This document shows positions 42,351 to 62,811 of a stretch of DNA of 64,000 nt, one piece after another. Position numbers and translations under genes: made by a program. The DNA is from Hymenobacter tibetensis (GTDB lineage: Bacteria; Bacteroidota; Bacteroidia; Cytophagales; Hymenobacteraceae). The stretch is taken from NCBI RefSeq assembly GCF_022827545.1, contig NZ_CP094669.1, positions 5,139,001 to 5,203,000 on the forward strand, written 5' to 3'. The notes under the pieces are model-generated. The model was not told where the DNA came from. It saw only the letters and a list, made by a program, of their open reading frames with translations, and made no database searches. Position 1 is the first letter of the stretch. Every line of letters starts with the position of its first letter.

Positions 42351-42354
42351 CAAC

Positions 42355-42657: not shown

Positions 42658-43338
42658 ATGATTAAATATATATTTCCTTCACTGCTTACTGCTAGCTTGC
42701 TCAGTTGTGCGTATCAGGCCTAGGCTCAAGCACCGGCCAAACAGTGGGACCGCACCTTCGGGGGCGATGGCAATGATCAGTTCTATGCTTTGCAGCAAAC
42801 CAGTGGTGGAGTTTATATTCAAGGAGGGTATTCAGACTCCGATAGCAGGGGCGACAAGACGCAGCCAAATCTGGGCTATTATGATTACTAGCTGGTTAAG
42901 ATTGATGCCAGCGGCACCAAGCAATGGGACCAAACGATTGGGGGCGATGGAAATGATTTCCTTCACACTATCCAACAAATCAGTGACGGGAGCTATATCC
43001 TTGGGGGCCGTTCTAAATCCGGAATTGGTAGTGATAAAACTCAAGCTAATCAAGGCGACAATGACTGTTGGATTGTCAAGATCGGCCCTGCTTCACTCGC
43101 TACTACCACCGCATCGCTTCAGCGCCTGCCCCTGACAGCATACCCCAACCCCGTCAACTCGGCCCTCACCCTATGCGGTCCCGCGGGCACACCCTACCAG
43201 TTGCTCAACCAACTCGGCCAAGTCGTGCGCACTGGTAAAGTGTCCGCCCAGCCGCTGGACGTGCAAACCCTGCCCGCCGGCCTGTATTTGCTGTACGATG
43301 CAATTAGTGGCCGCACCACTAAGCTTGTTAAAGAGTAA
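42658..43338 (+). pseudogene. Repeat-type T9SS protein interrupted by two in-frame TAG codons
   Basis: One frame of 227 codons runs from ATG 42658 to TAA 43336 with no shift. It encodes a signal peptide, two repeats of the type KQWDRTFGGDGNDQFYALQQ and KQWDQTIGGDGNDFLHTIQQ, and a T9SS domain (LTAYPNPVNSALTL, LPAGLYLL). TAG interrupts at codon 22, at the signal-peptide end (YQA*AQAPAK; AWAQ-type in relatives), and at codon 78, where the motif DYW-LVKIDASG predicts Trp. Both fit TGG to TAG changes. Without suppression only 21 residues would be made. The gene follows the tRNA after about 270 AT-rich bases. Confidence 0.85.
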
Positions 43339-43421
43339 CCTAGTAGCACGTTTCCTAGAAGCTAAGTGTACATGGTAGTAACCTGTCATCGTTATTGTCT
43401 GCGTATAGCTCATCATAGATC

Positions 43422-43685
43422 ATGCCCACCACCCATTATGCCTTTCGGGCCTTGCCCTTCGAGCAGCAAATAGTACTGGTGTGGGACGAAAGGCAACATG
43501 TAGCAACCCGCTATGAGGAAGTAGATACCGTTGCTCCTTACTACATGGGCGGAGCCTCCTTTGTCGAGTTGTTCTACAATCCCATCTATAATGTGCTCCA
43601 AGACCGGTTGCGGACGTTTGTGAGCACGGCCTTGCTGGAACCCTATGCCTCTGTTGTTAATCTGGATGATTTAGCTCTGGAGTAG
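43422..43685 (+). CDS. Small hypothetical protein
   Basis: The 87-residue product starts MPTTHYAFRALPFEQQIVLV and contains VATRYEEVDTV, FVELFYNPIYN and an acidic end VVNLDDLALE. It is mixed alpha/beta, without a signal peptide or membrane helix. I do not recognise a named family. Coding composition and a clean ATG start support it being real. It lies head-on to the broken small gene at 43707-43994, with only 21 bases between their stops. Confidence 0.6.
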   Translation: MPTTHYAFRALPFEQQIVLVWDERQHVATRYEEVDTVAPYYMGGASFVELFYNPIYNVLQDRLRTFVSTALLEPYASVVNLDDLALE

Positions 43686-43706
43686 GGAGGCCTCATCCGT
43701 GTGTTA

Positions 43707-43994
43707 TTAGTCAGCAGCAACAGTTACCTCTTGCTGCACCAGCACGTACATGTCGGCTACCACGAAGAAGTCGCTGCGGAACAGATGGGATTCCCGCTCG
43801 GCAATCGCCTCGTAGGCCGACTCGGCAATTTTCAGGTGCGCGACCTCGCCACTCGTGCCCTGCCCCCGGTCACCATGTACGCACAGCAGATGGTCGTACT
43901 AGTTAAGCGGTTTGTACTGAAAGATGCGGCTGAAGGCCTTACGCTCGGTATAGGCAGCTAAATCAGCGGGGATAGCAAGCTTCTTGGAACTCAT
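43707..43994 (-). pseudogene. Small gene interrupted by one TAG
   Basis: On the minus strand a 96-codon frame from ATG 43994 to TAA 43707 reads MSSKKLAIPADLAAYTERKA, then FSRIFQYKPLN, TAG (codon 32), and YDHLLCVHGD continuing in frame through EVAHLKIAESAYEAIAER to the end. Both sides look coding and there is no frameshift. CAG to TAG is the likely change. Upstream on the same strand is TACCTT, similar to a promoter box. The family is not recognised; the size and acidic helix suggest a small cytosolic protein. Confidence 0.7.
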
Positions 43995-44119
43995 GGTTGC
44001 ACGGGAATACGCTCGAAGGTAGAGCCCCTTGCGCAAAATGCAGTAGCTATTGAGCGCAACAGCAATGATTGTAATTATTTTACTTACTTAGTACTTACTT
44101 GCAGGACTATCTCAAGCAT

Positions 44120-45745
44120 TTATTCTATCACAAGGCGAGATACCGATGCCCCCATCCGGACCCAATACAAGCCCCGAACGAGACCCGTCAAGTCGAGTGG
44201 TATCGTCTTGCTTCCCTGCTCTAGTATAAACCAGCTTACCTGCCGACCCAGTCCGTCGAGCACCTGCACCACCTGACGGCCGGTAGTGAGTGGGCTCCGG
44301 GTGAGCACGGTACGTGTCAGAGCGGGGTTGGGAGCCAAGCTAAAGGGAGAAGCAGAACGCGGTGTATGGGTCGCTAGCCCCATATTCGTCAGGTGAGCGA
44401 CAAACGCTCCGTCGCGTACACTCGACAGGGTTGTAGGACCAAAGGTAGCTGGGCTCGCATACAGACCTGCCACCACCGTTGTTCCTTTACTGACTAAAGC
44501 TGTTCCGAAATCGTCGCCTGGGCCGCCAGCACGCACGGCCTGCGTCCAGGAGCCGGTGGAGTTAAGCGTAGCGACTACAAGATCGCGTCCTCCAGCACTT
44601 GTTAAGCTAGTGGAACCAAAGAGCGCCGTGCCTGTGAAAAATCCGGTGATGACCACGTTCCCTTGCCCATCCAATGCTACCCCAAAAGCCGCATCTAATT
44701 CGGAGCCTCCGGCTTGAACGGCAAAACCCCACTCTCCGGAGGGATTTAAGCGAGCTACGAAAATATCCGCTGAGCCCATACTGGTTAAGGATGTGGCGCC
44801 AAAGCTGGCTGTGCCGCGGAAATACCCGGTGAGGGTAGCATTGCCAACATTATCGAGTACGACCTGGCCGCCATAATCACCATCGGTACCGCCAGCCCGC
44901 ACCACCTGGATCCAATTTCCCGCGGCATCAACCCTTGCCACAAAGGCATCGTTGTTACCCGCACTGGTAAGCAGTGTAGTGCCAAAGGCCGCCGAACCAC
45001 CGAAGTAGCCCGCGATAACGGCCGTACCGTTCCCCTCTAAAGCAAGAGAGGAAGAAGAATCAAACGCGGCTCCCCCCGCCCGCACCGCCTGGGTCCAAGT
45101 ACCAGCTGCACTTAGCCTAGCCACAAAAACATCCGTACTTCCGGTACTTGTTAGATTAATCGTGCCAAAGGTTGCGGTATTGTCAAAAGTACCTGTTAGA
45201 ACGGCACTGCCATTCGAATCTATGGCGATAGATTGCGCGTAATCGGGACCTGGCCCCCCGGCTCGTACCGCCTGGGTCCACTGCCCAGCTGCGTTCAGCC
45301 GTGCTACAAAAAGATCGGCATTGCCGGCGCTCGTTAGGGTGGTGGTGCCGAAGGTCGCGGTAGTAGAAGCCAGTCCTCCGCGCAGAACTCCAAAATAACC
45401 CGCCAACAACGCATTTCCTGTGGCATCCACTACTATATCATATATATAGTCGTCGCCCTCTCCCCCAGCCCGCACGGCTTGCGTCCATTCGCCGGAAGCA
45501 TTCATACGAGCCACAAACACATCGGAATTGCCTGTGCTGGTGAGCACATAAGTACCTAAGGTTAGGGTAGTGGCAAAATTACCAGCCACAATGGTGTTAC
45601 CAGCCCCATCAAGTGCGATTTGCACATTAGTGCCGCCAGCGCCTTCAACTTGACTGACCCTCTGCCATGTGGTTTGCGCCCATGCCGGAGCAGCACTCAG
45701 GATCAAAAAAACAACTGCCAATTGGCGTAGCGTATCGTGTAGCAT
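44120..45745 (-). CDS. SBBP-repeat beta-propeller protein with T9SS sorting domain
   Basis: ATG 45745 gives a signal peptide ending SAAPAWAQ; 541 residues. The body has about eight blades of the SBBP type, each with a phrase like GDVFVARMNASGEWTQAVRAGG and a turn such as DATGNALLAGYFGG followed by ATFGTTTLTSAG. The C-terminal 80 residues form a T9SS domain: FSLAPNPALTRTVLT, VLDGLGRQV, RGLYWVRMG. It should be secreted to the cell surface. A relative of the same design, broken by one TAG, lies at 60495-62168. Function unknown; blades are typically ligand- or matrix-facing. Confidence 0.93.
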   Translation of the reverse strand: MLHDTLRQLAVVFLILSAAPAWAQTTWQRVSQVEGAGGTNVQIALDGAGNTIVAGNFATTLTLGTYVLTSTGNSDVFVARMNASGEWTQAVRAGGEGDDYIYDIVVDATGNALLAGYFGVLRGGLASTTATFGTTTLTSAGNADLFVARLNAAGQWTQAVRAGGPGPDYAQSIAIDSNGSAVLTGTFDNTATFGTINLTSTGSTDVFVARLSAAGTWTQAVRAGGAAFDSSSSLALEGNGTAVIAGYFGGSAAFGTTLLTSAGNNDAFVARVDAAGNWIQVVRAGGTDGDYGGQVVLDNVGNATLTGYFRGTASFGATSLTSMGSADIFVARLNPSGEWGFAVQAGGSELDAAFGVALDGQGNVVITGFFTGTALFGSTSLTSAGGRDLVVATLNSTGSWTQAVRAGGPGDDFGTALVSKGTTVVAGLYASPATFGPTTLSSVRDGAFVAHLTNMGLATHTPRSASPFSLAPNPALTRTVLTRSPLTTGRQVVQVLDGLGRQVSWFILEQGSKTIPLDLTGLVRGLYWVRMGASVSRLVIE

Positions 45746-45943
45746 ATAACTGGATATATCCCCACAAAGATAACTCAACAGCAATTACAGCCCAACTTTC
45801 GCGTCTTCTAAATTGGAGAATAAGAAGTATATGAGTTACTGACAAGAACAAGACTGCGTCCGTAAGCCCTTCACTTTAGTCGCAGCGGTGCCCCACGGTT
45901 GGCAAGCCATTTGCAGTGATGATCACACCTACCCTTAATTATT

Positions 45944-46186
45944 ATGCACGCCTCTATCACCCCCATTTATAGCGCCGATACCGAGCGCCGCCATCAAGCC
46001 TTTCTCGTCTGTGCCGTTGGCCTGGCTGAACGCCACAAGCTGTACTTGGAAGAAGAAGGCAAGAAGATTGCTGACTGCTACACGCTAGAGATTGGCAATC
46101 ATAGCAGCCGCATTGAGATCCATCAGGATGTGCCGATGGACTTGTATGAGGAGATACACACGTGTTGGAAACACTGCTTCAATTGA
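45944..46186 (+). CDS. Small hypothetical protein
   Basis: This 80-residue acidic protein starts MHASITPIYSADTERRHQAF. It has a helical centre (VGLAERHKLYLEEEGKKIAD) and a Cys/His-containing end (EIHTCWKHCFN). It has no signal peptide and no recognised domain. A strong terminator eight bases after the stop supports a genuine transcription unit. Confidence 0.6.
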   Translation: MHASITPIYSADTERRHQAFLVCAVGLAERHKLYLEEEGKKIADCYTLEIGNHSSRIEIHQDVPMDLYEEIHTCWKHCFN

Positions 46187-46193
46187 TACAAAT

Positions 46194-46223
46194 AAAAAGC
46201 CCCGGCAACTGTCGGGGCTTTTT
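46194..46223 (+). terminator. Intrinsic terminator
   Basis: AAAAAGCCCCG (46194-46204) pairs exactly with CGGGGCTTTTT (46213-46223) around an 8-base loop. Confidence 0.9.
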
Positions 46224-46345
46224 GGTAAGTGTGGTTGCAGATAGGATGTGACTAGAGCTTGTCAAATAGTGTACCAACACCGGATCAACTCCTGCTTCAG
46301 TGCATAATAAATCCAAGCAGGCCTGCACCTTCGTAAGTCGTCGCT

Positions 46346-46654
46346 ATGACCAAGCGTTTTTCTTTGCCTCGTCTAGCCGAGCGCGCGCGCCGGCGCCACG
46401 CCTGCCGCACTCACTTTCCTTTGGCCAGCAGCTACTTCCCTTCTCTTTGGGACTGGTACTGCTGGTGTCAACACAGCGACATTACGGGACTCCCGGTGCT
46501 GGAAGCAAGCATAGAGCTAAGCGGCAGGTGATACCCGGCTGTGCCACGAATGGATAAAGATTTCCTGGTCTTTGCGGGCCTCGGCAATAGCTGGGCAGGT
46601 GGTCTATACAGTATGATCGGTACTGAACTACATCTTCTGTACATCTTCACGTGA
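46346..46654 (+). pseudogene. Small hypothetical gene with an internal TGA
   Basis: A 103-codon frame from ATG 46346 ends in a TGA that overlaps the next ATG (TGATG). TGA at 46529-46531 interrupts it at codon 62. Both halves look coding: WYCWCQHSDITGLPVLEAS before, and RMDKDFLVFAGLGNSWAGG then LYSMIGTELHLLYIFT after. CGA or TGG to TGA would explain the stop. The overlap with the next gene suggests a former two-gene unit. The family is not recognised and the amino-terminal 30 residues are Arg-rich and less convincing. Confidence 0.5.
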
Positions 46655-46857
46655 TGATCCAGATCTACAATGATGGGAAAGGGAAAACCGATTCTTGTGA
46701 GGCGACCTTAGCAGACCCTGAGACGTGGGGGCTACAACCGATCTATGGATTAGGAGCCTCGCGCCAGTAAGTTGCGGTAGCCCTGAAACAGGCCATCGAG
46801 CAGCACATTGCGAAGCTGCAAGCCCTCGATTATACGGCAGTCGTTTTTACAGAGTAG
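46654..46857 (+). pseudogene. Small hypothetical gene with an internal TAA
   Basis: A 68-codon frame starts MIQIYNDGKGKTDSCEATLA, continues DPETWGLQPIYGLGASRQ, is cut by TAA at 46768-46770, and resumes VAVALKQAIEQHIAKLQALD to TAG at 46855. The two halves fit one small protein with a beta start and a helical end. GAA or CAA to TAA would explain the stop. It overlaps the preceding broken gene by one base, so the pair was probably translationally coupled. No family name can be given. Confidence 0.6.
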
Positions 46858-46984
46858 CTCACCTTCTGCTTGGCTGACTCCTAATCCGCTCGCGCACTCA
46901 ATTGAGCCGACAGCACCTAACACTGAACCAGTACCAGAACAGGCTTCTTGCTTGCTAGAGGGGCAGTGCCTTCTATCTTGCGCC

Positions 46985-47044
46985 ATGAGGAAAGCACTAC
47001 TTACAGGAATCGTACTGGCCTCGGCCTTGTCCGCAGGCGCGTAA
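46985..47044 (+). pseudogene. Severed signal-peptide segment of the serine protease gene
   Basis: ATG 46985 encodes MRKALLTGIVLASALSAGA, a textbook signal peptide, then TAA at 47042-47044. The same frame continues with Ser and the Met of the protease at 47048. A Gln codon (CAA) instead of TAA would give a normal AGA/Q cleavage site. The likely ancestral gene therefore ran 46985-47740. Confidence 0.75.
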
Positions 47045-47047
47045 TCG

Positions 47048-47740
47048 ATGACCAAACGCGACCTACTGCAGAACATCGTTCATCTCTCGTTCCCTAAGAC
47101 GTTTGGCAGCTATGGGGGTTCTGCTTTTCTGCTCGACAACGGCATTCTCGTCACCTGTGCCCATAACATGTATCGCAGTCCCAACCGCTACGTCAAGTGG
47201 CTAACCCTCTACGTACGGGAGGCGGTACCAAGCGCCACTCCGGAGTCACTGACCCTCTCAGCTGACTACATTAAGCGCAACACCGTCACCTCTAGCTTGT
47301 TCATCTACCCACAAGTAATTCGGCACAAAAAAGCGCGAATAAAGTATGATTACGCCTTCATTCGCATCAGCGAGACTGCTATGCAACGCTTGCGTCCAGG
47401 GCTACTACCGGCAACTATAGCAACGACTCCTCCTGTGCTCACTGACTCGCTATATCTGATAGGCTATCCAGACAGTAAGCTCACCAGTCTATCCTACGCC
47501 CCGGGGCGCTGGGCCGTCGCTCCCGAAGAGAATGACGCCACTTTAACCGATCTTACCCGAATGTGGTACGTTACTGATGCACTAACAGACGGCGCCAGTG
47601 GCAGCCCACTGCTGCAAATACGAGACGGAAAAGCTGTCTTAGTCGGGGTACACACGGACGGAGCAGCTGACCCACCTTACAAACCGGGTAACAAAACCGC
47701 CGGGGTAACGAACTGGACTAAATTTAACGAAGACTACTAA
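47048..47740 (+). CDS. Trypsin-like serine protease, cut from its signal peptide
   Basis: The remaining open part encodes 230 residues from MTKRDLLQNIVHLSFPKTFG. It is a chymotrypsin-fold protease of the V8/glutamyl-endopeptidase type. The catalytic triad is visible: His in VTCAHNMY near residue 37, Asp in IKYDYAFIRI near residue 101, and Ser in DGASGSPLLQ near residue 184. With the signal peptide severed by TAA 47042, a product started at 47048 would stay in the cytoplasm, where such a protease is unexpected. The gene may be inactive, or translated by re-initiation three bases after the stop. Confidence 0.85.
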   Translation: MTKRDLLQNIVHLSFPKTFGSYGGSAFLLDNGILVTCAHNMYRSPNRYVKWLTLYVREAVPSATPESLTLSADYIKRNTVTSSLFIYPQVIRHKKARIKYDYAFIRISETAMQRLRPGLLPATIATTPPVLTDSLYLIGYPDSKLTSLSYAPGRWAVAPEENDATLTDLTRMWYVTDALTDGASGSPLLQIRDGKAVLVGVHTDGAADPPYKPGNKTAGVTNWTKFNEDY

Positions 47741-47862
47741 GCTGCCCTGCAAAAACCGGGACGTTAAACAGATACATTACCTAGCAGATAACTAAATCTA
47801 TTGCACTTGCTCTCATCTGTTAGTTGCGCTGCTATCAACAAGGCTCATTCAATTCTCGCTCG

Positions 47863-47891
47863 AAAAGCCCCGCTCGTTTGGCGGGGCTTTT
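47863..47891. terminator. Bidirectional terminator between protease and porin genes
   Basis: AAAAGCCCCGC (47863-47873) and GCGGGGCTTTT (47881-47891) are exact complements around loop TCGTTTG. Confidence 0.88.
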
Positions 47892-47913
47892 AGTAACTGG
47901 TACTTGTCTGCGG

Positions 47914-48612
47914 CTAAAGCGCACTCAACTGATAGCTCACCTGTGCTTGCAGAGTGCGATTGCGGATTCCTTCGGTCCGGCTGGTTGGGATAGTAGTAGC
48001 ATAGTCGAGGGGCTGGCGAACTGACGTGAGGCCCGCGGCATAGCGCAGCTCGACACCAAAGCGAGTGGTTGCTTGATAGCCGATGCCGACGACGTAGCCC
48101 ACTTCCCAGCGCTGATAATCGTTCGTCCCGCGTACGCTGGTTGCCTCGGGAAACACGAACGCGGGATCCGGTACGCCGCTAGCCAATTCCGCCCTAGAAT
48201 GGCCCCGCCGCCGTGCCCCTACCAAATAGCTTAGCTGCGGCCCCGCGACGGCAAACCACTTCTCCCCGTGCACGCGCCCTAGGACCGGTAGCCCGATATA
48301 GTGCAACAAGCTTCTTTCCTGGTACGTGTACTTCACGTTCGTATCGGTGCCCCGGTACTCCTTTGTGTACGAGGTACGGGCACCGCGTTGCTCGAACAGC
48401 AATTCAGGCTGTACGTCCAGGTGGGTAAACAAGGGTAGGCGCGCCAGCACCCCCGCCATAGGCCCTAGTCGGAAACGGGGGTTCGCCACGTCGCCACCGT
48501 AGTAGGTGCTGGCATTGAGCCCGGCTTTGACGCCGAATCTAAGGTGTTGTGCCTGTAGCGTGTTAGTAGCTGCCAGCAACCCTAAGAGCGAAAGTGTAAA
48601 GTGACGGATCAT
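47914..48612 (-). CDS. PorT-like outer-membrane beta-barrel protein
   Basis: This 232-residue protein has a signal peptide cleaved after LQAQ and an eight-stranded barrel pattern typical of the outer-membrane-beta-barrel (PorT-like) family: LRFGVKAGLNASTYYGG at the start, LFTHLDVQPELLFEQRG, LHYIGLPVLGRV, and a final strand LQAQVSYQLSAL. Members are abundant in Bacteroidota and mostly of unknown function. A remnant of a second gene of this type lies at 59274-59440 and keeps LRYAA, LRQP and LQAQISYAFGAQ. Confidence 0.88.
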   Translation of the reverse strand: MIRHFTLSLLGLLAATNTLQAQHLRFGVKAGLNASTYYGGDVANPRFRLGPMAGVLARLPLFTHLDVQPELLFEQRGARTSYTKEYRGTDTNVKYTYQERSLLHYIGLPVLGRVHGEKWFAVAGPQLSYLVGARRRGHSRAELASGVPDPAFVFPEATSVRGTNDYQRWEVGYVVGIGYQATTRFGVELRYAAGLTSVRQPLDYATTIPTSRTEGIRNRTLQAQVSYQLSAL

Positions 48613-48820
48613 AGCGTGTAATAATAAAGCGGTGAGTACTACACAGAGTAAGCTGACGCACAGAAGGTTGGCAGCTCAAGAAAGATAGAACGAACAGCTG
48701 GCAATCCCAAAGAGCCCATTCCCATAAGTGGGACTTCTTAAACGGGTATAGCGGTTTGATATACCCTTGGTGAGCCTGTCTCATTCCCAAAAGTCAATAT
48801 CTCTTACGGGCCTCGCTTTA

Positions 48821-49129
48821 TCACGGAAAAGTGGCTCGAAACTCCCGCGTCGACAGACTAGTTTTCGCTTTGAAGAGCTTGCTGAACGAGGGTACATGCT
48901 CAAATCCGAATTCGTAGGCAATTTCGCTCGCAGTGCTAGAGGTGGCCGACAACTTTTCCTTTGCTTTCGCAATCAAGTGGGCATGAATGTGCTGCTGAGT
49001 ATTTTGCCCTGTCACGACGCGCATTAGGTTGCTCAAATACTTGGGGGAGAGCTGTAAGCAGTCGGCCACATAGTGCACCGCAGGCACACCTCGTTCCGGT
49101 AACTCAGGGCTGTTGAAGTGGCCGTTCAT
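48821..49129 (-). CDS. AraC-type DNA-binding domain, probably a truncated regulator
   Basis: Only 102 residues are present. They form the AraC/XylS C-terminal domain with two helix-turn-helix units: VADCLQLSPKYLSNLMRVV and ASEIAYEFGFEHVPSFSKLF. Full-length members carry about 170 further N-terminal residues for ligand sensing. Upstream in the same frame there is a TAA nine bases before the ATG, and the space beyond is occupied by the remnant of another gene on the opposite strand. It is either a pseudogene or a stand-alone DNA-binding domain. Confidence 0.75.
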   Translation of the reverse strand: MNGHFNSPELPERGVPAVHYVADCLQLSPKYLSNLMRVVTGQNTQQHIHAHLIAKAKEKLSATSSTASEIAYEFGFEHVPSFSKLFKAKTSLSTREFRATFP

Positions 49130-49254
49130 ATGGCATTATCAGTACCGCCCACATCTCCTACTTGCGCCAGCTCCTTATTTACTCGTGCCACCTGCTCAGC
49201 AAGGTGTGCATTTATGCGAACTTGTTCTCACTCTAGATACGCCCACGGGCTTAA

Positions 49255-49419
49255 CTACTGCTTCTCTCCGTCGGCTCCAATTCAGCATTTGAAGCCGATG
49301 AAAAGGGGCTTGTCGAGTCTGTTGCTAAGGCACGCGGTGTAATTGTATCTAGTTTAGTGCGCCTTTTAGCCTTCGATGAAGCTCGCCGTTTAGGTATACC
49401 ATTACCTAGCAAGTCTTAA
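49255..49419 (+). pseudogene. C-terminal fragment of a possible ribbon-helix-helix protein
   Basis: Without a start, the frame reads SNSAFEADEKGLVESVAKARGV-like residues in two parts (AFEADEKGLVESVAKARG, then VIVSSLVRLLAFDEARRLGI) and ends PLPSKS with TAA. The pattern of an acidic strand, a helix with Ala/Gly, then SSLVRLLAF resembles ribbon-helix-helix DNA-binding proteins such as MobC/NikA-type mobilisation factors. Upstream the coding-like frame switches (TPTGLTTASLRRLQFS), suggesting a frameshift. Family assignment is tentative. Confidence 0.4.
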
Positions 49420-49456
49420 GTACCAGATAACGTACGGCTGTTCTATAAGAAGGAAG

Positions 49457-49479
49457 AAGCCCGGCCAATGACCGGGCTT
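49457..49479. terminator. Intrinsic terminator of the AAGCCCGG type
   Basis: AAGCCCGG (49457-49464) pairs with CCGGGCTT (49472-49479) around a 7-base loop. It belongs to a set of similar hairpins in the accessory part (also 52318, 57831 and 62875). Confidence 0.75.
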
Positions 49480-49566
49480 TGTTGTGTAATGAGTAGATGA
49501 GTTTACATTGTAGACGGACATCATATAACGCGTAATACTTACTCAAATATGACTCCTACAGATATA

Positions 49567-49633
49567 CTCTATTCTCATCATAAATAGGAAAGCTCCTTAG
49601 GTAGGGACTTTCTTATTTATGATGAGAATAGAG
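49567..49633. repeat. Long inverted repeat upstream of the Crp/Fnr gene
   Basis: Arms of 26 bases at 49567-49592 and 49608-49633 match as reverse complements with one mismatch and enclose a 15-base loop. The arms are AT-rich (CTCTATTCTCATCATAAATA at the left) and unlike the GC-rich terminators elsewhere. It sits 127 bases before the Crp/Fnr start. It may be a regulatory RNA structure, or the trace of a small mobile repeat. Confidence 0.75.
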
Positions 49634-49760
49634 GCATCCAGTGAATTATACCCTTCAGGTATTTTTTTAAACCCGCCTGCTTACTCTTTCCGGAATAAGT
49701 AGCCATCAGAAAGTGTGCGTTATTGTAACGTTAGATACTATCCGCCATAAGCCGCTTGGT

Positions 49761-50339
49761 ATGTACGCTCCCTTGCTCGCCCATATTGCTCGCTACGTAA
49801 CCCTGACACCAACAGAAACCGACATACTGGTGAGCTACCTGCGTACCCAGACGGTTGCCCGCAAAGATTTTCTGCTGCGCGAAGGCCAGGTTTGCTCAGC
49901 CAGCTATTTCGTGCTTGGCGGCTGTCTGCGCACGTATTTCCTCTCCGATAAAGGCACCGAGCACATCATCCAGTTCAGCATCGAAAACTGGTGGGTGACA
50001 GATTATGCGAGCCTGAGCGCGCAGACGCCAACGCCCTTCACTGTGCAGGCCCTGGAGCCAACGGACGTGGTCGTCTTCGACCAGTCGGTGCAGGAGGAAG
50101 TGTTCCATCGCCTTCCCCAGTTGGAACGGTATTTCCGCCTGATTTTGCAGCGTACGGTCGCCGCGGCTCAGTACCGCAACCAGTTCCTGTTTGGCCTTTC
50201 CGGGGAAGAGCGGTACTATCATTTTGCCGCAGCCCAACCGGGGTTTGTACAGCGGGTGCCGCAATACATGCTCGCGTCCTACCTCGGCTTCACGCCCGAG
50301 TTTCTCAGTAAAGTCCGGGCGAAAGCCGGCCACTCTTAA
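49761..50339 (+). CDS. Crp/Fnr-family transcription regulator
   Basis: The start is ATG 49761 (MYAPLLAHIARYVTLTPTET); 192 residues. The N-terminal part is a cyclic-nucleotide-binding beta-roll (FLLREGQVCSASYFVLGGCL, IIQFSIENWWVTDYASL), a dimer helix follows, and the C-terminal winged helix includes RVPQYMLASYLGFTPEFLSKVR. The arginine-containing phosphate cassette of true cAMP receptors is absent, as in many Bacteroidota members. It precedes two AhpD-like genes on the same strand by 113 bases and may control them, a frequent arrangement in this phylum. Confidence 0.93.
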   Translation: MYAPLLAHIARYVTLTPTETDILVSYLRTQTVARKDFLLREGQVCSASYFVLGGCLRTYFLSDKGTEHIIQFSIENWWVTDYASLSAQTPTPFTVQALEPTDVVVFDQSVQEEVFHRLPQLERYFRLILQRTVAAAQYRNQFLFGLSGEERYYHFAAAQPGFVQRVPQYMLASYLGFTPEFLSKVRAKAGHS

Positions 50340-50452
50340 CACCGGCCGTACGCGCAACTGGCCGGCGTTTTCTTAACCTAGATTAAGGAGAAGCGGGGCA
50401 CGGGGGTTCGACCTTTGACGCATCGTTCAACCCCTTATTAACCCCTGCTACC

Positions 50453-50890: not shown

Positions 50891-50945
50891 GGTGTCGCCT
50901 GTACGCGTTGCGTTCGTTTTACCTCTCCTTGTTACGTTACCTCTT

Positions 50946-52297: not shown

Positions 52298-52317
52298 CAT
52301 AGCACCTAAGAATAAGA

Positions 52318-52340: not shown

Positions 52341-52368
52341 CCGTGTAGTTCAATAGATCACCTGCTCT

Positions 52369-54565: not shown

Positions 54566-55018
54566 ACAGGCGACGGAGGATATTCCTGCTGCAACGAACA
54601 AGGAGCTTCAGGGTTACTCTATTACCTATATATACGATAGACAGCCTACGTTTGATACCCTCACGTAGCGGTGACTACCAGCGCTATGAGTAAGGCGATT
54701 GTCAACTGAAAAACCACACGTCAACCAGTAGGCACAGACTTAGAAGCAAGCAAAGAAGTAGAATCCGTCTCAAGCACAAGAGGCGTCGAATCCGGGCACG
54801 AGTATGCTTCATTGAACACACACTAGAGGCTAGTACCATTACACCAAAGCAAGCTCGGCCAGCAAGGCCAAGGCAGATACTATACACAAGAGCGTAGAGG
54901 CCCCTAATTCCTCGGTAAAACGATATGGAGTAGAGTCTTTTAGCATGTAAAACGAAGAAAGGATTATAAACTATGTACAAACATATTTACATAGTGCAAA
55001 TACATTGCCAGACTTTTT
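54566..55018. other. 453-base stretch without a supported gene
   Basis: A 92-codon minus-strand frame (54702-54980) is hydrophobic and Leu/Cys/Arg-rich, but shows no domain, and its composition looks like chance. The last 60 bases are AT-rich and lie downstream of the STAS-like gene. Nothing else is seen. Confidence 0.5.
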
Positions 55019-55417
55019 CTATTCTTGGGCTAGGAGCCACGCGACAGCTAGGTCTTCTCGATCGAAATGCTGATAAACGACACCTGAGTGCTGCATTGCC
55101 TGCAGGCTTATACTGTGCACCGCGAGGCGCGCAAACAAGTGGGTGGAGTTAAGGATGGCGCCGTAGCGGTAGCCTTGTTGGGCCGCCCGCGGCAACCAGT
55201 CGAGCATGTACCACGCTGCGTCTTCGTCAGCGGGCGGGTCTGCTAGGCGTTGGTCGGTGAGTACTTTATGGCACCCCCAAGTGCGCAGCTCGAGCAGGAC
55301 GCGCTCTAAGACGGCGCGCGTAGCTGCGCTCGAGATGGGTCCTGCTAGCCACGTCACGTGCAAAAAGCCGGCGGGGTGGAACACGATACTGGCAGCAGGT
55401 GCCGTCGAAAAAGCCAT
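55019..55417 (-). CDS. STAS/SpoIIAA-like protein, second copy
   Basis: This 132-residue soluble protein shares the layout of the members at 15611-16006 and 55522-55929: an N-terminal strand pair ending LHVTWLAGPIS, a helix RAVLERVLLELRTWGCHKVL, a DQRLADPP turn, then WLPRAAQQGYRYGAILNSTH and a C-terminal DLAVAWLL helix. It follows the third copy on the same strand by 104 bases, so the pair probably forms an operon divergent from the BLUF gene. A signalling role is suggested by that position only. Confidence 0.75.
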   Translation of the reverse strand: MAFSTAPAASIVFHPAGFLHVTWLAGPISSAATRAVLERVLLELRTWGCHKVLTDQRLADPPADEDAAWYMLDWLPRAAQQGYRYGAILNSTHLFARLAVHSISLQAMQHSGVVYQHFDREDLAVAWLLAQE

Positions 55418-55521
55418 CAGGACCAGGGAAAGAACAGGTACATTGGCGCCTCGCTCGTTGCGGTCACCCCATGTTGTACTAGTATACGAGAGACCACAAA
55501 AAAACGCTCGCTAGGGCAGAG

Positions 55522-55929
55522 CTACGCTACGTGTGGTTGCGTTCTCAGCCACGCGCGGGCCTCCTCTTCGCTCACGCCCGTGTAATAGCGGGGCCAAGGC
55601 GCGGTCTGATCGTGCAGGATGTCGACCAGCGCCATATGCGAGAGCAGATCCGGCGGCTGCACTAAAGCACAGTACCGGTAGCCCGCTCGTAGAGCCCGGG
55701 GCCGCCAATCGAGTTGCAACCAGACTTGCATCTCCACGGAGAAGGGGAGCTCGGCCTGCTGGGAGACCAGCAGCTTTTGCCAGTGATGGGTTTGCAAGGC
55801 CCCCAGCACTTGCTCCATTACGTGCTGCAGGGCAGTATCCGTGTGCAGACCGGGCCCCCAGTGTAGGTGCAGGTAGTCAGCTCCGGAGTGCAGCGTGATG
55901 CGCGCGACGCGATTGTGGAAGTACACCAT
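55522..55929 (-). CDS. STAS/SpoIIAA-like protein, third copy
   Basis: This 135-residue protein has RITLHSGADYLHLHWGPGLH, a helix HVMEQVLGALQTHHWQKLLV, then WLQLDWRPRALRAGYRYCAL and an end EEEARAWLRTQPHV. It matches its neighbour at 55019-55417 in fold and in the phrase PRA-(Q/R)-GYRY. It is divergent from the BLUF photoreceptor gene, with 97 bases between the starts. The arrangement suggests a light- or redox-controlled regulatory unit, but no experimental family role is known to me. Confidence 0.75.
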   Translation of the reverse strand: MVYFHNRVARITLHSGADYLHLHWGPGLHTDTALQHVMEQVLGALQTHHWQKLLVSQQAELPFSVEMQVWLQLDWRPRALRAGYRYCALVQPPDLLSHMALVDILHDQTAPWPRYYTGVSEEEARAWLRTQPHVA

Positions 55930-56026
55930 CGGCTTCTATACGGTCAGGCTGCTTTTGCGTAGTGGCCCCCGGTAAAACCCGTAGTTATGCGGAGTCAATT
56001 GTTCACGTGGCCTGCGTATACCTACT

Positions 56027-56605
56027 ATGAAGAATTCCGACCTACTACGGCGGCAGAAAGCCGTCGCGTGGGTCTTGACCCTCACCGAGAACACCCGCTT
56101 TACTCCGCACCCCTACGAGCAGCACTTACTTGAACGCTTTGCCCAAGGCGAGATTGCACTCGACGACATCCCGTCTTTATTTGCGGCGCGTGTACACCAC
56201 ATTCTTTACCGTAGCCGAGCTACCCACCCGTTTACGCAGGAACAGCTCACGGACTTGGTTGCGCATTCGCGTCCCTACAACACGTATAGCGACATCACCG
56301 GCTTACTCTGTTACTGCGATGGGACCTTTGTGCAGTTACTCGAAGGGCCGGAAGCGTCGGTACTCGAACTCTACGCCGCCATCTGCCAAGACCCGCGGCA
56401 TGAACAGATCGAGACTCTAAGCGACGCGGCCGGCTCTACCCGGTGGTTTGCCGACTGGCGCATGGCCCTGACTACTCCACCACCAACAACTTTCTACTGG
56501 TTGATCTCACACCTGGAAGCGCGTGAGCAGGCACTTGTGCAGCCTCAGTTTCCCATAACTGATCCGCACCTACTGACCTTGCTGCAAGCGTTCAGCAGGC
56601 TGTAA
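56027..56605 (+). CDS. BLUF-domain photoreceptor with a VbhA-like N-terminal extension
   Basis: The 192-residue protein ends in a BLUF flavin domain (about 56-150) with VHHILYRSRA (key Tyr), SRPYNTYSDITGLLCY (Asn) and GTFVQLLEGPEASV (Gln), so the flavin photocycle residues are present. The first 55 residues read RRQKAVAWVLTLTEN and LLERFAQGEIALDDIPSLF, resembling the helical antitoxin-VbhA type unit with its GEI-x-x-D motif. BLUF proteins sense blue light through FAD. The N-terminal fusion is unusual. Neighbouring STAS-like genes are divergent and may be its targets. Confidence 0.88.
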   Translation: MKNSDLLRRQKAVAWVLTLTENTRFTPHPYEQHLLERFAQGEIALDDIPSLFAARVHHILYRSRATHPFTQEQLTDLVAHSRPYNTYSDITGLLCYCDGTFVQLLEGPEASVLELYAAICQDPRHEQIETLSDAAGSTRWFADWRMALTTPPPTTFYWLISHLEAREQALVQPQFPITDPHLLTLLQAFSRL

Positions 56606-57157
56606 ACGTAGATGGAATGTTGCCTAGTAGCGCCAGTAACGGGGTACTTATGAGCTCAGACTGTCTGCTTAGAATGCAGCCGTTTTCTTCTCGAGTCCTC
56701 ATGTGTCGAGCAACACGCAATACAAGCAGCGTTTGCGCCCGACGCCCTGGCCAACGAGGCGTTCGGCTGGTGGAATACTACCCCTATCGGACAATCCGGT
56801 TAGATTATGTCATACTAACTCCAGGCTAATGCCTGGAGCCCTGGCATGGAAAGAGAGAATGTACTTTGCTGGCATGGTGGGGTATGTACGGCGACGGGAC
56901 CAAAAGACGGCGAAGTGCCCACGCTGATTGCCTGTCTACAGCTTGTACATCTGACACACGTGCGGACTTGTCTGCTCTAGCTCTTTGTCACAAATAGCCA
57001 AACTCTTAGACTAGTGCACTACGAAAAAAAGCCTTCTAAGCTGAACAGGAGATGATTGATGGTGCTATATACTTGTGAAAGCATACTATACTAAGGATAA
57101 CACCAGTCACAGTAGCGCACGAGGTGTCCTGTTGGTCGGCTAGTAGGTGAAGTAGCT
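56606..57157. other. 552-base stretch holding at most a short gene remnant
   Basis: At about 56690-56803 a plus-strand frame without a start reads EQHAIQAAFAPDALANEAFG then WWNTTPIGQSG and TAG, which looks coding-like and may be the end of a lost gene. A small hairpin, CCAGGCtaatGCCTGG, follows at about 56822. The remaining bases to 57157 are AT-rich and hold nothing I can support. Confidence 0.35.
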
Positions 57158-57397
57158 TTGCAGTACTACAAAGCTTCCTCGCGCTTCTATCCACTCACAC
57201 TTACCTTGCCTACTTCTATACCTTCGTGTTCTGCTCCCTTACCCATTGCGTCTCACTTGTTTACGCTCAGCGCCCTGGACGTCGCGCCGGGTTACGCTAC
57301 CATTGACGGCGAGTATATTGCCCAAGAAGACGGCGAAGAAGCCTTGCGCACTGGCCGGGCTATGTTAGTTGGTGGCCTGTTCGTTGGGTTAGAGTAA
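57158..57397 (+). CDS. Doubtful small hypothetical protein or remnant
   Basis: The frame of 79 codons opens with TTG and has no in-frame ATG before residue 68. The last 50 residues (FTLSALDVAPGYATIDGEYI, then AQEDGEEALRTGRAMLVGGL) look coding, with a GYATIDGEYI strand pair and an acidic turn. The first 25 residues are Pro/Ser/Leu-rich and less convincing. It may be the 3' part of a lost gene. I do not recognise a family. Confidence 0.35.
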   Translation: MQYYKASSRFYPLTLTLPTSIPSCSAPLPIASHLFTLSALDVAPGYATIDGEYIAQEDGEEALRTGRAMLVGGLFVGLE

Positions 57398-57422
57398 CGT
57401 CGAGTAAGCGCATCCGTATTCC

Positions 57423-57720
57423 CTACATAGATAGCCCCTGCGAGCAATCACGCGAGGTGCCTTCTCGTTCCAGACTAGCCACCGCATTGGTACGCATGCG
57501 ACGGTGTTCCCACTCTTCTTCCAAGGTAGCGCCGATGGAGCGTTGCACCGTGTCAAGCACACGGTTGATCCTTTCAATGGTCTGCCAATCGAAGCAGTAA
57601 CTAACCTGCATACCTACCCGTCCTGCTTCTAATGGCTGGATCTTCCACACATTAGCGCTGGCTTGTTCTAGGCCCGCCTGAATGCATCTGAATGCGTTCT
57701 GCTTGCTCTATTGAACTAGC
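57423..57720 (-). pseudogene. Small hypothetical gene broken by a 10-bp tandem duplication
   Basis: On the minus strand the upstream frame reads SSIEQAERIQ and the downstream frame AGLEQASANVWKIQPLEAGR then VGMQVSYCFDWQTIERINRV to TAG at 57423. The break is at two adjacent copies of CTGAATGCAT/CTGAATGC (57678-57695, plus strand). Removing one 10-base unit restores a continuous reading SIEQAERIQAGLEQASANVW. The 5' end is lost where a dispersed repeat begins at about 57719. The family is not recognised; the product would be helical and cytosolic. Confidence 0.7.
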
Positions 57721-57853
57721 CGTGCAGACTTCGCTGGAATTAAAGGTGGATACCGATCCTACGCAGTAAGTTGAATTCTTCACTGTTAATCATCCCGTAA
57801 GGCTGCGACGCAAGATAACTGCACAACAAGAAGCCCGGCCAGTGGCCAGGCTT
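57719..57853 (+). repeat. Dispersed repeat copy A (gene end plus terminator)
   Basis: About 135 bases match 62763-62899 closely, including an identical stretch of about 50 bases starting TGGAATTAAAGGTGGATACC. Both copies encode the same C-terminal tail (LELKVDTDPTQ, TAA), the same 3' leader and a similar hairpin. Copy A has no upstream gene body and abuts a truncated gene on the other strand. Confidence 0.85.
57831..57853. terminator. Terminator hairpin within repeat copy A
   Basis: AAGCCCGGCC (57831-57840) pairs with GGCCAGGCTT (57844-57853) with one mismatch, then TTTC. It lies 23 bases from the stop of the convergent dehydrogenase gene. Confidence 0.7.
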
Positions 57854-57876
57854 TTCGCTTCTAAAACCGCAGCAGA

Positions 57877-59181
57877 TTACATACCGCGGTAACTCACGCG
57901 CCAGATAACGCCGGCTCCGTCCTCGGCAATGAGCAGCGCCCCGTCACTAGCCACCGTGATGCCCACGGGCCGGCCCCACACCTGCGGGGCCGCGCGCTGG
58001 CCGTCATTGAGGTGCCAACCCGTAACGAAGTCCTCATAGCCCGCTCCGCGCCCATCTGCCCCGGCCGTTTCGGGTACGCCAGCCGCATTCATGCGGATGC
58101 GCACCACTTTGTAGCCACTGCCTTCGGCGCGGTTCCAAGAGCCGCGCATAGTCACGAACAAATCGCCGCGGGCATCAGCAGGAAAAGCGGTGCCATTGTA
58201 GAACGTCAGGCCCAGAGCAGCCGAGTGCGGCCGCAACAGCACTTCCGGCGTACGGGTGGTAGCGACCTCCGCCGGCACCGGGCCGGGCACTCGCGGGTCG
58301 CGGTTGGTAGGCGCCAAATACACCCAGGGATAACCGAAGAAGCCGCCGCGGGGCACCGCCGTCACGTAGTCCGGCACCAGATCGTCACCGAGCAAGTCCC
58401 GCTCGTTGGATACCGTCCAGATTTCCCCCGCTCGAGCCGGGTTCACGTCCATGCCCTGCGGGTTGCGCAGTCCCGAAGCGTAGGTGGCTTGGCCCGTGCC
58501 ATCGAGGTTGAATTCCTGAATGGTGGTCCGACGGGGGTCCTGTTCTACCGTCGCGTTTTGCGACGAGCCGATGCCCACGTAGAGCTTGTTGTTATACAGC
58601 ATCAGGGAGCGAGCCGGATGCTGCGCCCCACCCGGCAGGTCGGCCAACTTGGTCGGCGCCCCCGCGGCCTGGGTCTGACCGCTGGTGTACTCGTAGCGCA
58701 ACAGCGCTCCGGAGCAGGCCACATAGAAACTGTTCCCGTTGAAGGCCATACCCATCGGCCGGTCGAGTACCCCCGCTGAGGCCCAGACGCTGCTGGTTTC
58801 AGCTCGGCCGTCTCCGTCGGCGTCGCGCAGCACTGTGATTTGGTTTTGCATCATCTGCGCGACAAACACGTCGCCGTTGGGCGCGATGGCCATCCAGCGG
58901 CCGGTGGGCACGTCCTCGCGAAAGATGTTGACGGCATATCCCTGCGGCACCCGTAGTTTGGCATCCGTGGGGCGCTCCATGAGCACCTGCGGGTAGTTGG
59001 TGGCGGACGGGGTCGCGTAGGGCGCCGGCAACTCGGCGAGCCGAATGGTCGTGGTGGCGGGCGTCAGCGTTTCCGTCGGGAAGTCGGCCACCTGCGGTTC
59101 GGTGTTGCTATCATCGTCGTTGTTGCAGGCATTCAAGCCCAGCAGCAGCGCTCCGGACAGTACGTAAATAGTAAGTTTCAT
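57877..59181 (-). CDS. PQQ-type glucose/sorbosone dehydrogenase-like lipoprotein
   Basis: ATG 59181 (MKLTIYVLSGALLLGLNACN) gives a lipoprotein signal with lipobox GLNAC followed by an Asp/Asn-rich tether; 434 residues. The body is a six-bladed propeller of the soluble glucose dehydrogenase/L-sorbosone dehydrogenase family: PTGRWMAIAPNGDVFVAQ, GVLDRPMGMAFNGN, ASGLRNPQGMDVNP, FGYPWVYL, RGSWNRAEGSGYKV and WGRPVGITVASDGALLIAED. These oxidise sugars or related alcohols in the periplasm or at the surface with PQQ. The frame is also open 96 bases upstream, but that part belongs to a porin remnant. Confidence 0.92.
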   Translation of the reverse strand: MKLTIYVLSGALLLGLNACNNDDDSNTEPQVADFPTETLTPATTTIRLAELPAPYATPSATNYPQVLMERPTDAKLRVPQGYAVNIFREDVPTGRWMAIAPNGDVFVAQMMQNQITVLRDADGDGRAETSSVWASAGVLDRPMGMAFNGNSFYVACSGALLRYEYTSGQTQAAGAPTKLADLPGGAQHPARSLMLYNNKLYVGIGSSQNATVEQDPRRTTIQEFNLDGTGQATYASGLRNPQGMDVNPARAGEIWTVSNERDLLGDDLVPDYVTAVPRGGFFGYPWVYLAPTNRDPRVPGPVPAEVATTRTPEVLLRPHSAALGLTFYNGTAFPADARGDLFVTMRGSWNRAEGSGYKVVRIRMNAAGVPETAGADGRGAGYEDFVTGWHLNDGQRAAPQVWGRPVGITVASDGALLIAEDGAGVIWRVSYRGM

Positions 59182-59273
59182 AGCGAGTTGGTTGGCGTAC
59201 AGAAGGCTATACGCAACCTCAACTAGGCCGTTATGGACCAGCTTTACCGAATGCTCCTGACGGATGACTTCAC

Positions 59274-59440
59274 TCACTGCGCTCCGAAGGCGTAGCTTAT
59301 TTGTGCTTGTAGACTGCTAGTGCGCACGTACCAGAGTTGTTGCGGCTAAAAGGGCGTATCATAGCATCATAGCGTAACTTCGAGGAAGGTTGGCGTAGCT
59401 TGGTGACCTCCGCCGCGTAGCGCAATGAGAAAGCCCTTGG
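59274..59440 (-). pseudogene. 3' remnant of a PorT-like porin gene
   Basis: Minus-strand codons read FSLRYAAEVTKLRQPSSKLR, then after a one-base frame change RTSSLQAQISYAFGAQ and TGA at 59274. The intact porin at 47914-48612 has VELRYAAGLTSVRQP and ends RTLQAQVSYQLSAL, so this is the last quarter of a related gene. No upstream part remains: a TAG precedes it and the barstar gene lies beyond. Confidence 0.75.
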
Positions 59441-59471
59441 CTAGAGTTAGCGTTTAGTGCCGAGCCAGTAA

Positions 59472-59744
59472 CTAGACCAGCACAATGCGCTTACCCGGCC
59501 GCTCGGTTTCGTAGTCCTGTATTACCTGCCGCAGGATGCCCATATCCTTCGGGCAAGCTTGAGCAAATTCCTCCCAGTTCACCAGCACCAGCTGCTCGGG
59601 CAGTTCGACGATGGCGATGATGCAGTCCCAGAAGGCGTCCCAGCTCGCCCAGCCCACGCCGTACCAGTCGGGAAAGCCCAGCTGAATTTTGAAGAGCTCG
59701 TGCAGGGCAGCTTTGGTGGTGATGCCGCGTAGGTCTAGGGTCAT
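59472..59744 (-). CDS. Barstar-family ribonuclease-inhibitor-like protein
   Basis: This 90-residue protein has the barstar fold signature: LDLRGITTKAALHELFKIQL, then GFPDWYGVGWASWDAFWDCI, followed by LPEQLVLVNWEEFAQACPKD and a final strand GKRIVLV. Barstars bind and block barnase-type RNases and serve as immunity proteins for secreted or contact-dependent toxins. No barnase-like gene is in the window, so it is an orphan immunity gene or a regulator. It is divergent from the SH3-domain gene. Confidence 0.9.
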   Translation of the reverse strand: MTLDLRGITTKAALHELFKIQLGFPDWYGVGWASWDAFWDCIIAIVELPEQLVLVNWEEFAQACPKDMGILRQVIQDYETERPGKRIVLV

Positions 59745-59813
59745 GCGGTAAAGTAGGAAGAGTGCAGGGAATCCGGCATTTTGCCGAACTTATTTATAGC
59801 AATACTTCTATTC

Positions 59814-60413
59814 ATGAAACAGGGTCGACTTGTTTAGGTGCTCTTTTTCTTGTCGTTGGTAGCCTCTGCACAGGTTCGCGACAGTGCTCGGGTCGACCAG
59901 ACGGACACGCAGGAACAACTTCTCTCCTATCGCTACGTCAATGCTTCATCCTTAACCTTACGAGCGCTTCCCTCCGCTGCCGCACAAGCCTTAGCTCGCC
60001 TTGACGGAGCGAGCCGGCTACTGCTGGTAGAAGAGCGTGCCGATGGCTGGAGCCAAGTGCAGGTGCAAGACTATCTTGGCTATGTCAAGTCGGAATACCT
60101 CGTCGAAGAGCAGGACCAGGTTACGGCCGAAACAGTTGATTGGGAGATAGTGGAAGTTGCCGGCGGGCAGGCCTATACCAAGGTCAGCACTGTCGAATCG
60201 CCGCGGGTGGTGGCTGGGCACCCTGCCACCCGCCCAGTGTCTTCCAAGCACTCCAGGGGACCGAAAGCATACATCTGCAACAATGGCCGCACAGAAGTTT
60301 ACCATAATAGTGAGGACTGCTCGGCTATGCGCCGCTGCACCTATCAAACCAAGATAGCCACCACCAGCGAGGCCAGAAACTCAGGCTTACGCGAGTGCAT
60401 GAAATGCTTTTAA
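59814..60413 (+). pseudogene. SH3-domain exported protein with TAG in its signal peptide
   Basis: ATG 59814 opens MKQGRLV, TAG follows at 59835-59837, and the frame continues VLFFLSLVASAQ, completing a normal signal peptide if the TAG is read as an amino acid (Trp by TGG to TAG is plausible). The rest is open to 60413. It has a bacterial SH3 domain (NASSLTLRALPSAAAQALAR, GWSQVQVQDYLGYVKSEYLV) and a C-terminal Cys/His motif (YHNSEDCSAMRRC, GLRECMKCF) seen in exported Bacteroidota proteins. A GTG right after the TAG could restart translation and still give a hydrophobic leader, so the gene may be functional. Confidence 0.75.
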
Positions 60414-60494
60414 CCACGCTCCGACTGCTTGGATAACACCTTTTTGCTGTAGTATGCTAACAAGCAAACCTCCCTTCTACCCAAACTATACTAT

Positions 60495-62168
60495 TTGATG
60501 CACACATCTACTTCTTCTATCCTCCGTCACGTCTGCTCGCTGTTGGCCGTTCCGTTGCTGCATGTTGGCGCCTTGGCTCAATCTACACCTACCTGGCAAA
60601 ATGCCCGTGCTGTAGGCACCAACCTGACTGTATCAGGCGCCGCCGCTGTTGATGCGAATGGCAACACCTATGAAGTGGGCTCGTTTTCGGGCACGGCTAC
60701 TTTTGATGGCCTCTCTCTAACCAGCCAAGGCAACATCGATGGATACATAGCCAAATACACTCCAACGGGCACCATAGCGTGGGTGCGCCAATTGGGTTCG
60801 ACAGGCCGAGATCTGGCGTTCAGTGTTGCGCTCGATGCGACTGGCAACACTTATGTTGCAGGAGATTTCACTAATTCGATTGCGCTGTCGGCCAGTGTCG
60901 TGCTCGATGGGGGTAGCACGACTACCTCTAAAGCCTTTGTAGTGCGCTTTTCGCCGCAAGGCACACCCGAGTAGGCGCAACAGAGCGTTCCGACACCTGA
61001 CAATGCACCCACAGCTAGTGGGGTGGGTACCGACGCCCTCGGCCATGTGTATATAACCGGGGTTTTTTCCCGAACCATCACGATTGGTTCTACCACAGTT
61101 ACGTTGCCTACTAATGTGAATAGCGTCTTTACGGCACGCTTATCAGCGGCTACTGGCACCATAGAGTCATTAGCATCTGCCTTTTATTACGCTACGTCTA
61201 CCAGCCCAGGCACCTTTGATTACTTTTATCCGCAGCTGGCAGTCACCCCTACCGGTGAGATGTACATTCTGAATACGTTTAATCAGTCCCCTCTATTTAG
61301 CAATACGACCCTCACCAGTCGTGGCAGCAATGATGTGCTAATAGCAAAATATAATGCCCAAGGCAATTTCGAATGGGCACAACAGTTCGGCGGACCTAGT
61401 GAAGAGAACATGCGGGACGGAGTAGTTGATGCGGCTGGCAACCTATACGTAGTAGGCAGCTTCACTGGCCCGGCCACGTTCGGCAATACCACACTGTCTG
61501 GGGCTGGCAACTTCGATGGGTGCCTCGTAAAATACTCGCCGCAAGGCACGATGCAATGGGTGCAATCTGTAGGGGGACCCAACGTGGACGGACTAACCAG
61601 CGTGAGCCTGGATACCAGCGGCAATCCCTACGTAACAGGCTATTTCACGGGTACCGCTCAATTTGGTTCGGCTACGCTTACCAGCACCGGCAGCCGCGAC
61701 ATTATGGTGGCAGCCTATACGCCACAAGGGCAGCTACGGTGGGCGCAACAAGCTAGTGGCCCCGGCGCAGATACCGGCACTTATCTTGGCATTGATGCCA
61801 CGGGGGAGGTATATGTACATGGGCTTTTTACGGGTAGTTGTAACTTCGGCCCGCTTTCTATAGCTAACTCTGCCACTGGCTATGAATCCTTTGTAGCCCG
61901 CCTTGGCAACCACACGTTCGCTACATCAGCCCGCCCTACTTTCTCGACAGGGCTTTATCCTAACCCTGCTACTACTTCCGTGCACCTTCCTTCTGTGCCC
62001 GTTGGTAATCAGGTGCAGTTACTGGATGCCGTAGGCCGCATAGCCCGCACCACCGTAGTAGCTCCCGGAGGTAGCGTGTCGTTACAGGGAGTAACCCCTG
62101 GCTTGTATGTGGTACGAGCCACCGATGCGCAGGGCCACCAGGTTAGTGGCCGGCTAGTCGTGGAGTAG
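60495..62168 (+). pseudogene. SBBP-repeat T9SS protein interrupted by one TAG
   Basis: A single 557-codon frame runs from ATG 60495 to TAG 62166. It has a signal peptide (cleavage near ALAQ), repeats like DANGNTYEVGSFSGTATF, DAAGNLYVVGSFTGPATFG and DTSGNPYVTGYFTGTAQFG, and a T9SS domain (TGLYPNPATTSVHLP, LLDAVGR, GLYVVRATDA). TAG at 60972-60974 (codon 160) reads GTPE*AQQS, where the parallel blades read GNFEWAQQ, GTMQWVQS and GQLRWAQQ. Trp is therefore expected and TGG to TAG explains it. There are no frameshifts. It resembles the intact protein at 44120-45745. Confidence 0.9.
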
Positions 62169-62198
62169 ACCTTATGCATTTAGATTTTCTGCTTCTTT

Positions 62199-62453
62199 AT
62201 GTTCGTTACCCTTCTGCTGTTCATGGGTGATATCGGCGCTACCGAATTGCTCACCATTATGAGCCTGCTCCTGATTCTCATCTTGGCGGCTATTTGGCGA
62301 TTGCTGCGACCAGCAAAACACACCGTCATCGTACAGCCGCCAACCGCTTCCTTCTCTGTTGCCGACGAACTGCAGAAGCTCGAACAGTTGCGGTAGCAGG
62401 GCGTGCTCACTGCCGAAGAGTTCGAAGCATAGAAGCAGCGGTTGCTACGCTAG
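62199..62453 (+). pseudogene. Membrane protein with SHOCT domain, interrupted by two TAG codons
   Basis: The 85-codon frame starts MFVTLLLFMGDIGATELLTI, has one membrane helix (about residues 18-40), a Pro-rich linker and a C-terminal SHOCT domain. That domain reads ADELQKLEQLR, TAG (62394-62396), QGVLTAEEFEA, TAG (62430-62432), KQRLLR, and a final TAG. In SHOCT consensus both interrupted sites usually hold Gln, Glu, Asp or Lys, so CAG to TAG fits. The first TAG leaves the membrane part intact but removes most of SHOCT. It follows the T9SS gene by 30 bases. Confidence 0.8.
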
Positions 62454-62580
62454 AACCACTTCATCCTTACCGCATAGACTACGCCTCTAACTCGCACGAG
62501 GGTGTGAAATGCTAGTAAGCAGAAAACCCAGGTTACCTCTCCCTACCTCAGCGCATCAAGAGCACATTCTTTCCGACCCA

Positions 62581-62811
62581 ATGAAGTTGCTGCTTTCTTT
62601 CCGCGAATCCCAGTATGGAATTCTCCTCCTGCTAAATAGCATTGGGTGGCGAGTAGTTCTATGGACTACAGAACAAGAGTAGGGCCTTCGCGTGGCGGAA
62701 GGATAGCGGTCCGAACTATGCTTTGTGACAGGATTGGATCTGCTTTCCGCCGTAGCTCCAGTCGTACAGGCTTCACTGGAATTAAAGGTGGATACCGATC
62801 CTACGCAGTAA
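62581..62811 (+). pseudogene. Small hypothetical gene with two in-frame TAG codons
   Basis: One 77-codon frame starts MKLLLSFRESQYGILLLLNS and continues IGWRVVLWTTEQE. It meets TAG (62680-62682), then GLRVAEG, TAG (62704-62706), and RSELCFVTGLDLLSAVAPVV, ending VQASLELKVDTDPTQ with TAA. The end is shared with repeat copy A at 57.7 kb. No frameshift is seen. The family is not recognised, and because it is short the coding assignment rests on the continuous frame and the conserved tail. Confidence 0.55.

Follow-up and report, generated by a model that had tools for sequence, protein, structure and literature searches.

The present analysis concerns a block of genes interrupted by in-frame stop codons in a Hymenobacter genome of 6.33 Mb and seven contigs. 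The window, that is, the whole stretch of DNA analysed, is 64,000 nucleotides long (G000:C1:5139001-5203000), and a preliminary description of it had listed 13 premature stops, mostly TAG. All named relatives of one protein of the window belong to Hymenobacter, the best of them (sp. YC55) at 78% identity. All 13 stop codons were located exactly at the positions given, the one at 43899 on the minus strand. The interrupted genes lie in a genomic island of about 25.6 kb in all, which extends beyond the right edge of the window; positions past that edge are given either in the adjoining sequence L081 or as extended coordinates (L081 position plus 64000), which continue the window rightward. The island and its integration site comprise the following features:

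42279..42351, plus strand, tRNA-Arg with anticodon CCT, the integration site (ARAGORN, Rfam RF00005)
42328..64000 and on past the window to 67940 (L081:3940), plus strand, lineage-specific island, its left end lying within the 3' end of tRNA-Arg(CCT)
L081:2512-3729, minus strand, tyrosine integrase of 405 residues (PF00589 Phage_integrase and a SAM-like domain)

At the far end of the island, a degenerate copy of the tRNA 3' end was found at extended positions 67917-67940, with 20 of 24 bases identical and 17 of 18 in the core, 188 bp from the start of the integrase gene. The tRNA site is unoccupied in all four relatives examined: homology from extended 68120-68271 onward resumes about 150-250 bp after the tRNA in G023, G002 and G007, and G009 carries about 1.9 kb of other sequence between the tRNA and the right-flank homology. 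Genomic islands integrated at tRNA genes carry a tyrosine recombinase, insert at the 3' end of the tRNA and have that end duplicated at their other boundary. The island described here resembles them in its insertion at the 3' end, the end copy on the far side, the adjoining integrase and the unoccupied relatives, but differs in that the copy is degenerate and that none of the proteins scanned was recognised as acting in transfer or mobilisation.

Related integrases (E up to 1e-60) were found in 56 of 120 genomes, the source genome counted, and the two closest, in G013 and G134, were followed in detail. The G013 integrase is 76% identical and has tRNA-Arg(CCT) on one side and the same right flank on the other; a copy of the tRNA end (16 of 18 bases, with G013's own tRNA as the probe) lies 203 bp from the integrase. 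For the G134 integrase, which is 70% identical, a tRNA-end copy matching 17 of 18 bases lies at 191 bp, and the tRNA-Arg is about 36 kb away.

Prematurity of the stops was assayed by aligning the island genes, with an X written for each stop, to the DNA of other Hymenobacter genomes. Genes with stops on which relatives bear are listed below:

42658..43338, plus strand, gene for a secreted protein sorted by the type IX secretion system (T9SS; Por_Secre_tail), with in-frame TAG at 42721 (possibly premature) and 42889 (firm)
43707..43994, minus strand, small gene, function unassigned, with TAG at 43899 and six residues shorter than its relatives elsewhere
51485..52120, plus strand, OmdA/DUF1801 gene (Pfam match on the 3' part), with TGA at 51626
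59814..60413, plus strand, gene with a weak SH3 match (SH3_3, below cut-off), with TAG at 59835 and a GTG start at 59838 immediately after
60498..62168, plus strand, SBBP beta-propeller protein with a T9SS tail (Pfam and NCBIfam matches on the 3' part), with TAG at 60972
62199..62453, plus strand, SHOCT-domain membrane protein gene (the SHOCT match exceeds its cut-off when the stops are written as X), with TAG at 62394 and 62430

The alignments identified six firm premature stops (42889, 43899, 51626, 60972, 62394 and 62430), all of which face Trp or Gln in relatives and each of which is one transition from the residue's codon, in agreement with the transition-type change originally proposed. 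Trp had been predicted at three of them and was recovered at each: at 42889 in all 20 alignments of at least 42% identity, representing 7 loci (other residues appear in 15 more distant alignments of at most 34% identity), at 60972 in 16 of the 19 alignments covering the site, and at 51626 in L153, the sole relative found. Gln stands at 43899 in five of five relatives, and at both 62394 and 62430 in G130, again the sole relative found, where the SBBP and SHOCT genes adjoin and are stop-free across the aligned stretches. Site 59835 is probably premature; it lies in a poorly conserved signal peptide, with Trp in L164 and L176, Cys in L158 and Pro in L170. Site 42721, also in a signal peptide and facing Thr or Asn, is only possibly so. 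Interruption by TAG alone, without any frameshift, had been claimed for six loci and was borne out for three (42658-43338, 60498-62168 and 62199-62453), the gene at 60498-62168 being a single open frame apart from its TAG; the minus-strand gene 43707-43994 is in addition six residues short. Within the source genome, stops occur in only 2 of 19 SBBP matches, both of them island copies.

For the remaining five listed stops the alignments give no support, and these fall in three loci:

46346..46857, plus strand, remnant with pieces in different frames, with TGA at 46529 and TAA at 46768
46985..47740, plus strand, trypsin-like open reading frame (ORF), with TAA at 47042 and an ATG at 47048, two codons on
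62581..62811, plus strand, remnant, with TAG at 62680 and 62704

Only the 3' pieces of the first remnant match a relative (L034), which has Leu at 46768. The trypsin-like ORF has no relative among the loci compared, and its part at 47048-47740 contains the whole Trypsin_2 domain; the TAA at 47042, for which Gln had been predicted, may therefore not be premature and may simply lie upstream of the true start. The match of the second remnant to its relative L174 is limited to residues 50-76, past both stops.

A strict criterion was then applied, in which the references were ORFs of relatives and at least 6 of 12 residues had to be identical on each side of a stop. Four stops in 2,458 island codons passed, versus one in 22,247 flanking codons (Fisher p = 4.5e-4), so that the stops are indeed concentrated in this block. 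Two of the six island stops flagged (59790 and 59835) and all other flank stops flagged (6 on the left and 8 on the right) fall short of the criterion. The flank stop that passed, 40797, is intergenic; its match spans 33 residues and is not in the frame of the gene starting at 40901, and p becomes 1e-4 once this stop is left out. Surveys without references were also carried out, the first version of which did not recover the known sites, and the second of which saw 42889 and 60972 only at threshold zero, where 98 other sites in 1.2 Mb were flagged as well. A third version returned 20 candidates in 1.324 Mb (12 TAG, 6 TAA and 2 TGA), which judging by a downstream ATG are largely neighbouring genes in one frame; seven have no ATG within 15 codons, 42889 and 60972 among them, which is weakly in line with the island result. 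A tblastn comparison of paralogues within the genome was rejected, its 107 flagged stops being discarded because antisense ORFs swamped the matches. Broken SBBP genes were also seen elsewhere, among the matches listed, in four Hymenobacter entries (6 TAG and 1 TGA) and in two outside the genus (1 TGA and 1 TAA). In one of these, L210 (G018:C8:1178500-1181500), one TAG faces Trp (33/42) and another Gln (21/42), the same pattern as at the island stops; the remaining stops of these genes are ambiguous or lie in stretches without good alignment.

We interpret the firm stops as nonsense mutations that arose in cargo genes of an integrative island under weak or no selection, as part of a recent and largely neutral decay, and give this reading a probability of about 0.92. 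Insertion of the element by a tyrosine integrase would have taken place at the 3' end of tRNA-Arg(CCT), so that the tRNA remained whole on one side and its 3' end was duplicated on the opposite side; some of the cargo would have brought no benefit, and transitions at its Trp and Gln codons would then not have been purged. The order of insertion and gene loss we only infer. The loss looks recent, the best-resolved frames being otherwise intact and divergence not raised: among 31 pairs compared, the ratio of non-synonymous to synonymous differences (pN/pS) was 0.37-0.54 in the ten involving gene 60498 (two of which share a single place as partner) versus 0.32-0.77 in the 21 between relatives, with synonymous sites saturated. 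The residues and this unraised divergence support the reading preferred in the preliminary description, namely loss of selection with transition-type mutation. According to Kuo and Ochman (PMC2916853), premature stops account for 131 of 346 single-lesion pseudogenes of Salmonella, and stop-only pseudogenes are therefore ordinary; the island genes resemble the recent bacterial pseudogenes described there in having mostly small lesions, but differ in that the SHOCT gene has two firm stops and the gene at 42658-43338 one firm and one possible. Failed horizontal transfer is an established suggestion for the origin of pseudogenes, according to Liu et al. 2004 (PMC522871), where the evidence is base and codon composition in 64 genomes, whereas here it is an island together with its site.

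Several points weigh against this interpretation. When 30 integrase loci were scanned with the tRNA-Arg(CCT) end of the source genome as the only probe, a tRNA-end copy (at most 3 mismatches) was found in just two, those of the source genome and G134. The stop rate of the island is biased upward, since many of its references came from searches in which the broken stretches themselves served as queries, and the saturation of synonymous sites leaves recency weakly shown. Several island genes are whole, so the loss is not general, and a search for a sister strain that shares the island, by which the stops might be dated, found none.

The same decay could also have taken place earlier, with the genes already broken in the donor before the island arrived. 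The loci at 46346 and 62581 are heavily degraded, and a piece of the former is also present in G023, where its upstream frame is broken. However, the divergence of gene 60498 does not exceed that of its relatives, and the SBBP and SHOCT genes of G130 stand side by side with their aligned stretches free of stops, so that decay in the donor is possible but considerably less probable than decay as island cargo.

Sequencing or assembly errors might be suspected because the best sites differ by single bases only. Yet no stop within a recognised gene passed the strict test in the 22,247 flanking codons, and the block also contains genes in pieces, which makes errors of this kind a quite improbable source of the stops.

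The predominance of TAG (9 of the 13 listed stops), the three genes otherwise in a single frame and the unraised divergence of gene 60498 would also fit read-through of TAG, owing to a suppressor tRNA or to the local context, with the genes still yielding full-length products. The share of TAG is, however, within chance and not special. Stops derived by transition, as computed from 250,899 codons in long ORFs, are expected to be 54.7% TAG, 23.6% TAA and 21.7% TGA, because the Gln codon CAG is the most frequent of all codons that a single transition turns into a stop and Trp adds to both TAG and TGA; against the expected 0.547, the probability of at least 9 TAG in 13 is 0.22, and that of at least 6 in 7, as observed at the firm or probable sites, is 0.10. 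The amber sites correspond to Trp (42889 and 60972) as well as Gln (43899, 62394 and 62430), and a single suppressor would therefore fail to restore the two. No CUA anticodon was present among 41 Rfam tRNA matches read by ARAGORN (150 of 194 candidates scored), and a pattern-based scan of the whole genome for CTA anticodons, which assumes a standard T arm and is not exhaustive, returned two tRNA-Glu and two non-tRNA sites. Release factor 1 is present (over cut-off, with a weaker second release-factor match), TAG terminates 194 of 479 long ORFs, and a gene of the same block is broken by the TGA at 51626. Read-through, already disfavoured in the preliminary description, is thus very improbable. 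Literature on islands or read-through in Hymenobacter was not found among the matches listed; one genome announcement for the genus (PMC8407713) contains the word 'pseudogene' once. Two other ideas were also considered and rejected: by eye, only 42721 fits a Dcm-like site (CCWGG) as the source of TAG, and, again by eye, the changes at resolved sites lie on both strands, which does not fit strand-biased deamination. Transposases were of no use as a neutral stop spectrum, as there were just three PF01609 matches, one of them bearing a stop (TAA).

Scarcely credible, finally, is the idea of a Hymenobacter tRNA-Arg(CCT) island family whose T9SS surface genes are silenced by nonsense mutation and kept as a reserve for recombination with whole paralogues, under which the best-kept genes would have few frameshifts as a result of selection.

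Some further features of the block and its surroundings were recorded. A direct repeat, 57718-57786 and 62760-62828, comprises 69 bases at 94% identity inside a longer stretch of 88% identity; the island thus contains two copies of the 3' end of the 62581 remnant, suggestive of a partial duplication or of gene conversion. The ORF at 47048-47740 gives weak PADLOC matches to the LmuA and RT-Protease_XI models, probably reflecting a shared protease fold only. A 102-residue ORF at 48821-49129 consists of nearly nothing but an AraC-type helix-turn-helix and is perhaps a truncated regulator. A hairpin-like intergenic repeat of 27 bases occurs at 46195-46221, 49454-49480, 57828-57854 and 62873-62899; short matches to the stretch 46194-46224 recur across many genomes of the genus, and the repeat is probably a shared type of terminator. 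The gene at 40901-42148, just before the tRNA, encodes an HD domain and PycTM (Pycsar effector) and belongs to the conserved flank, not to the island.

The preliminary description had missed that the interrupted genes share one tRNA-Arg island and that the TAG share needs no special cause; what is seen is routine gene decay with stops that look ordinary, and no new reading of the code. Codon usage and the decay of island cargo can together explain a conspicuous cluster of stops rich in TAG, which calls for caution in scans for recoding, and three Hymenobacter genomes document tRNA-Arg(CCT) as a site used for integration by one integrase family.

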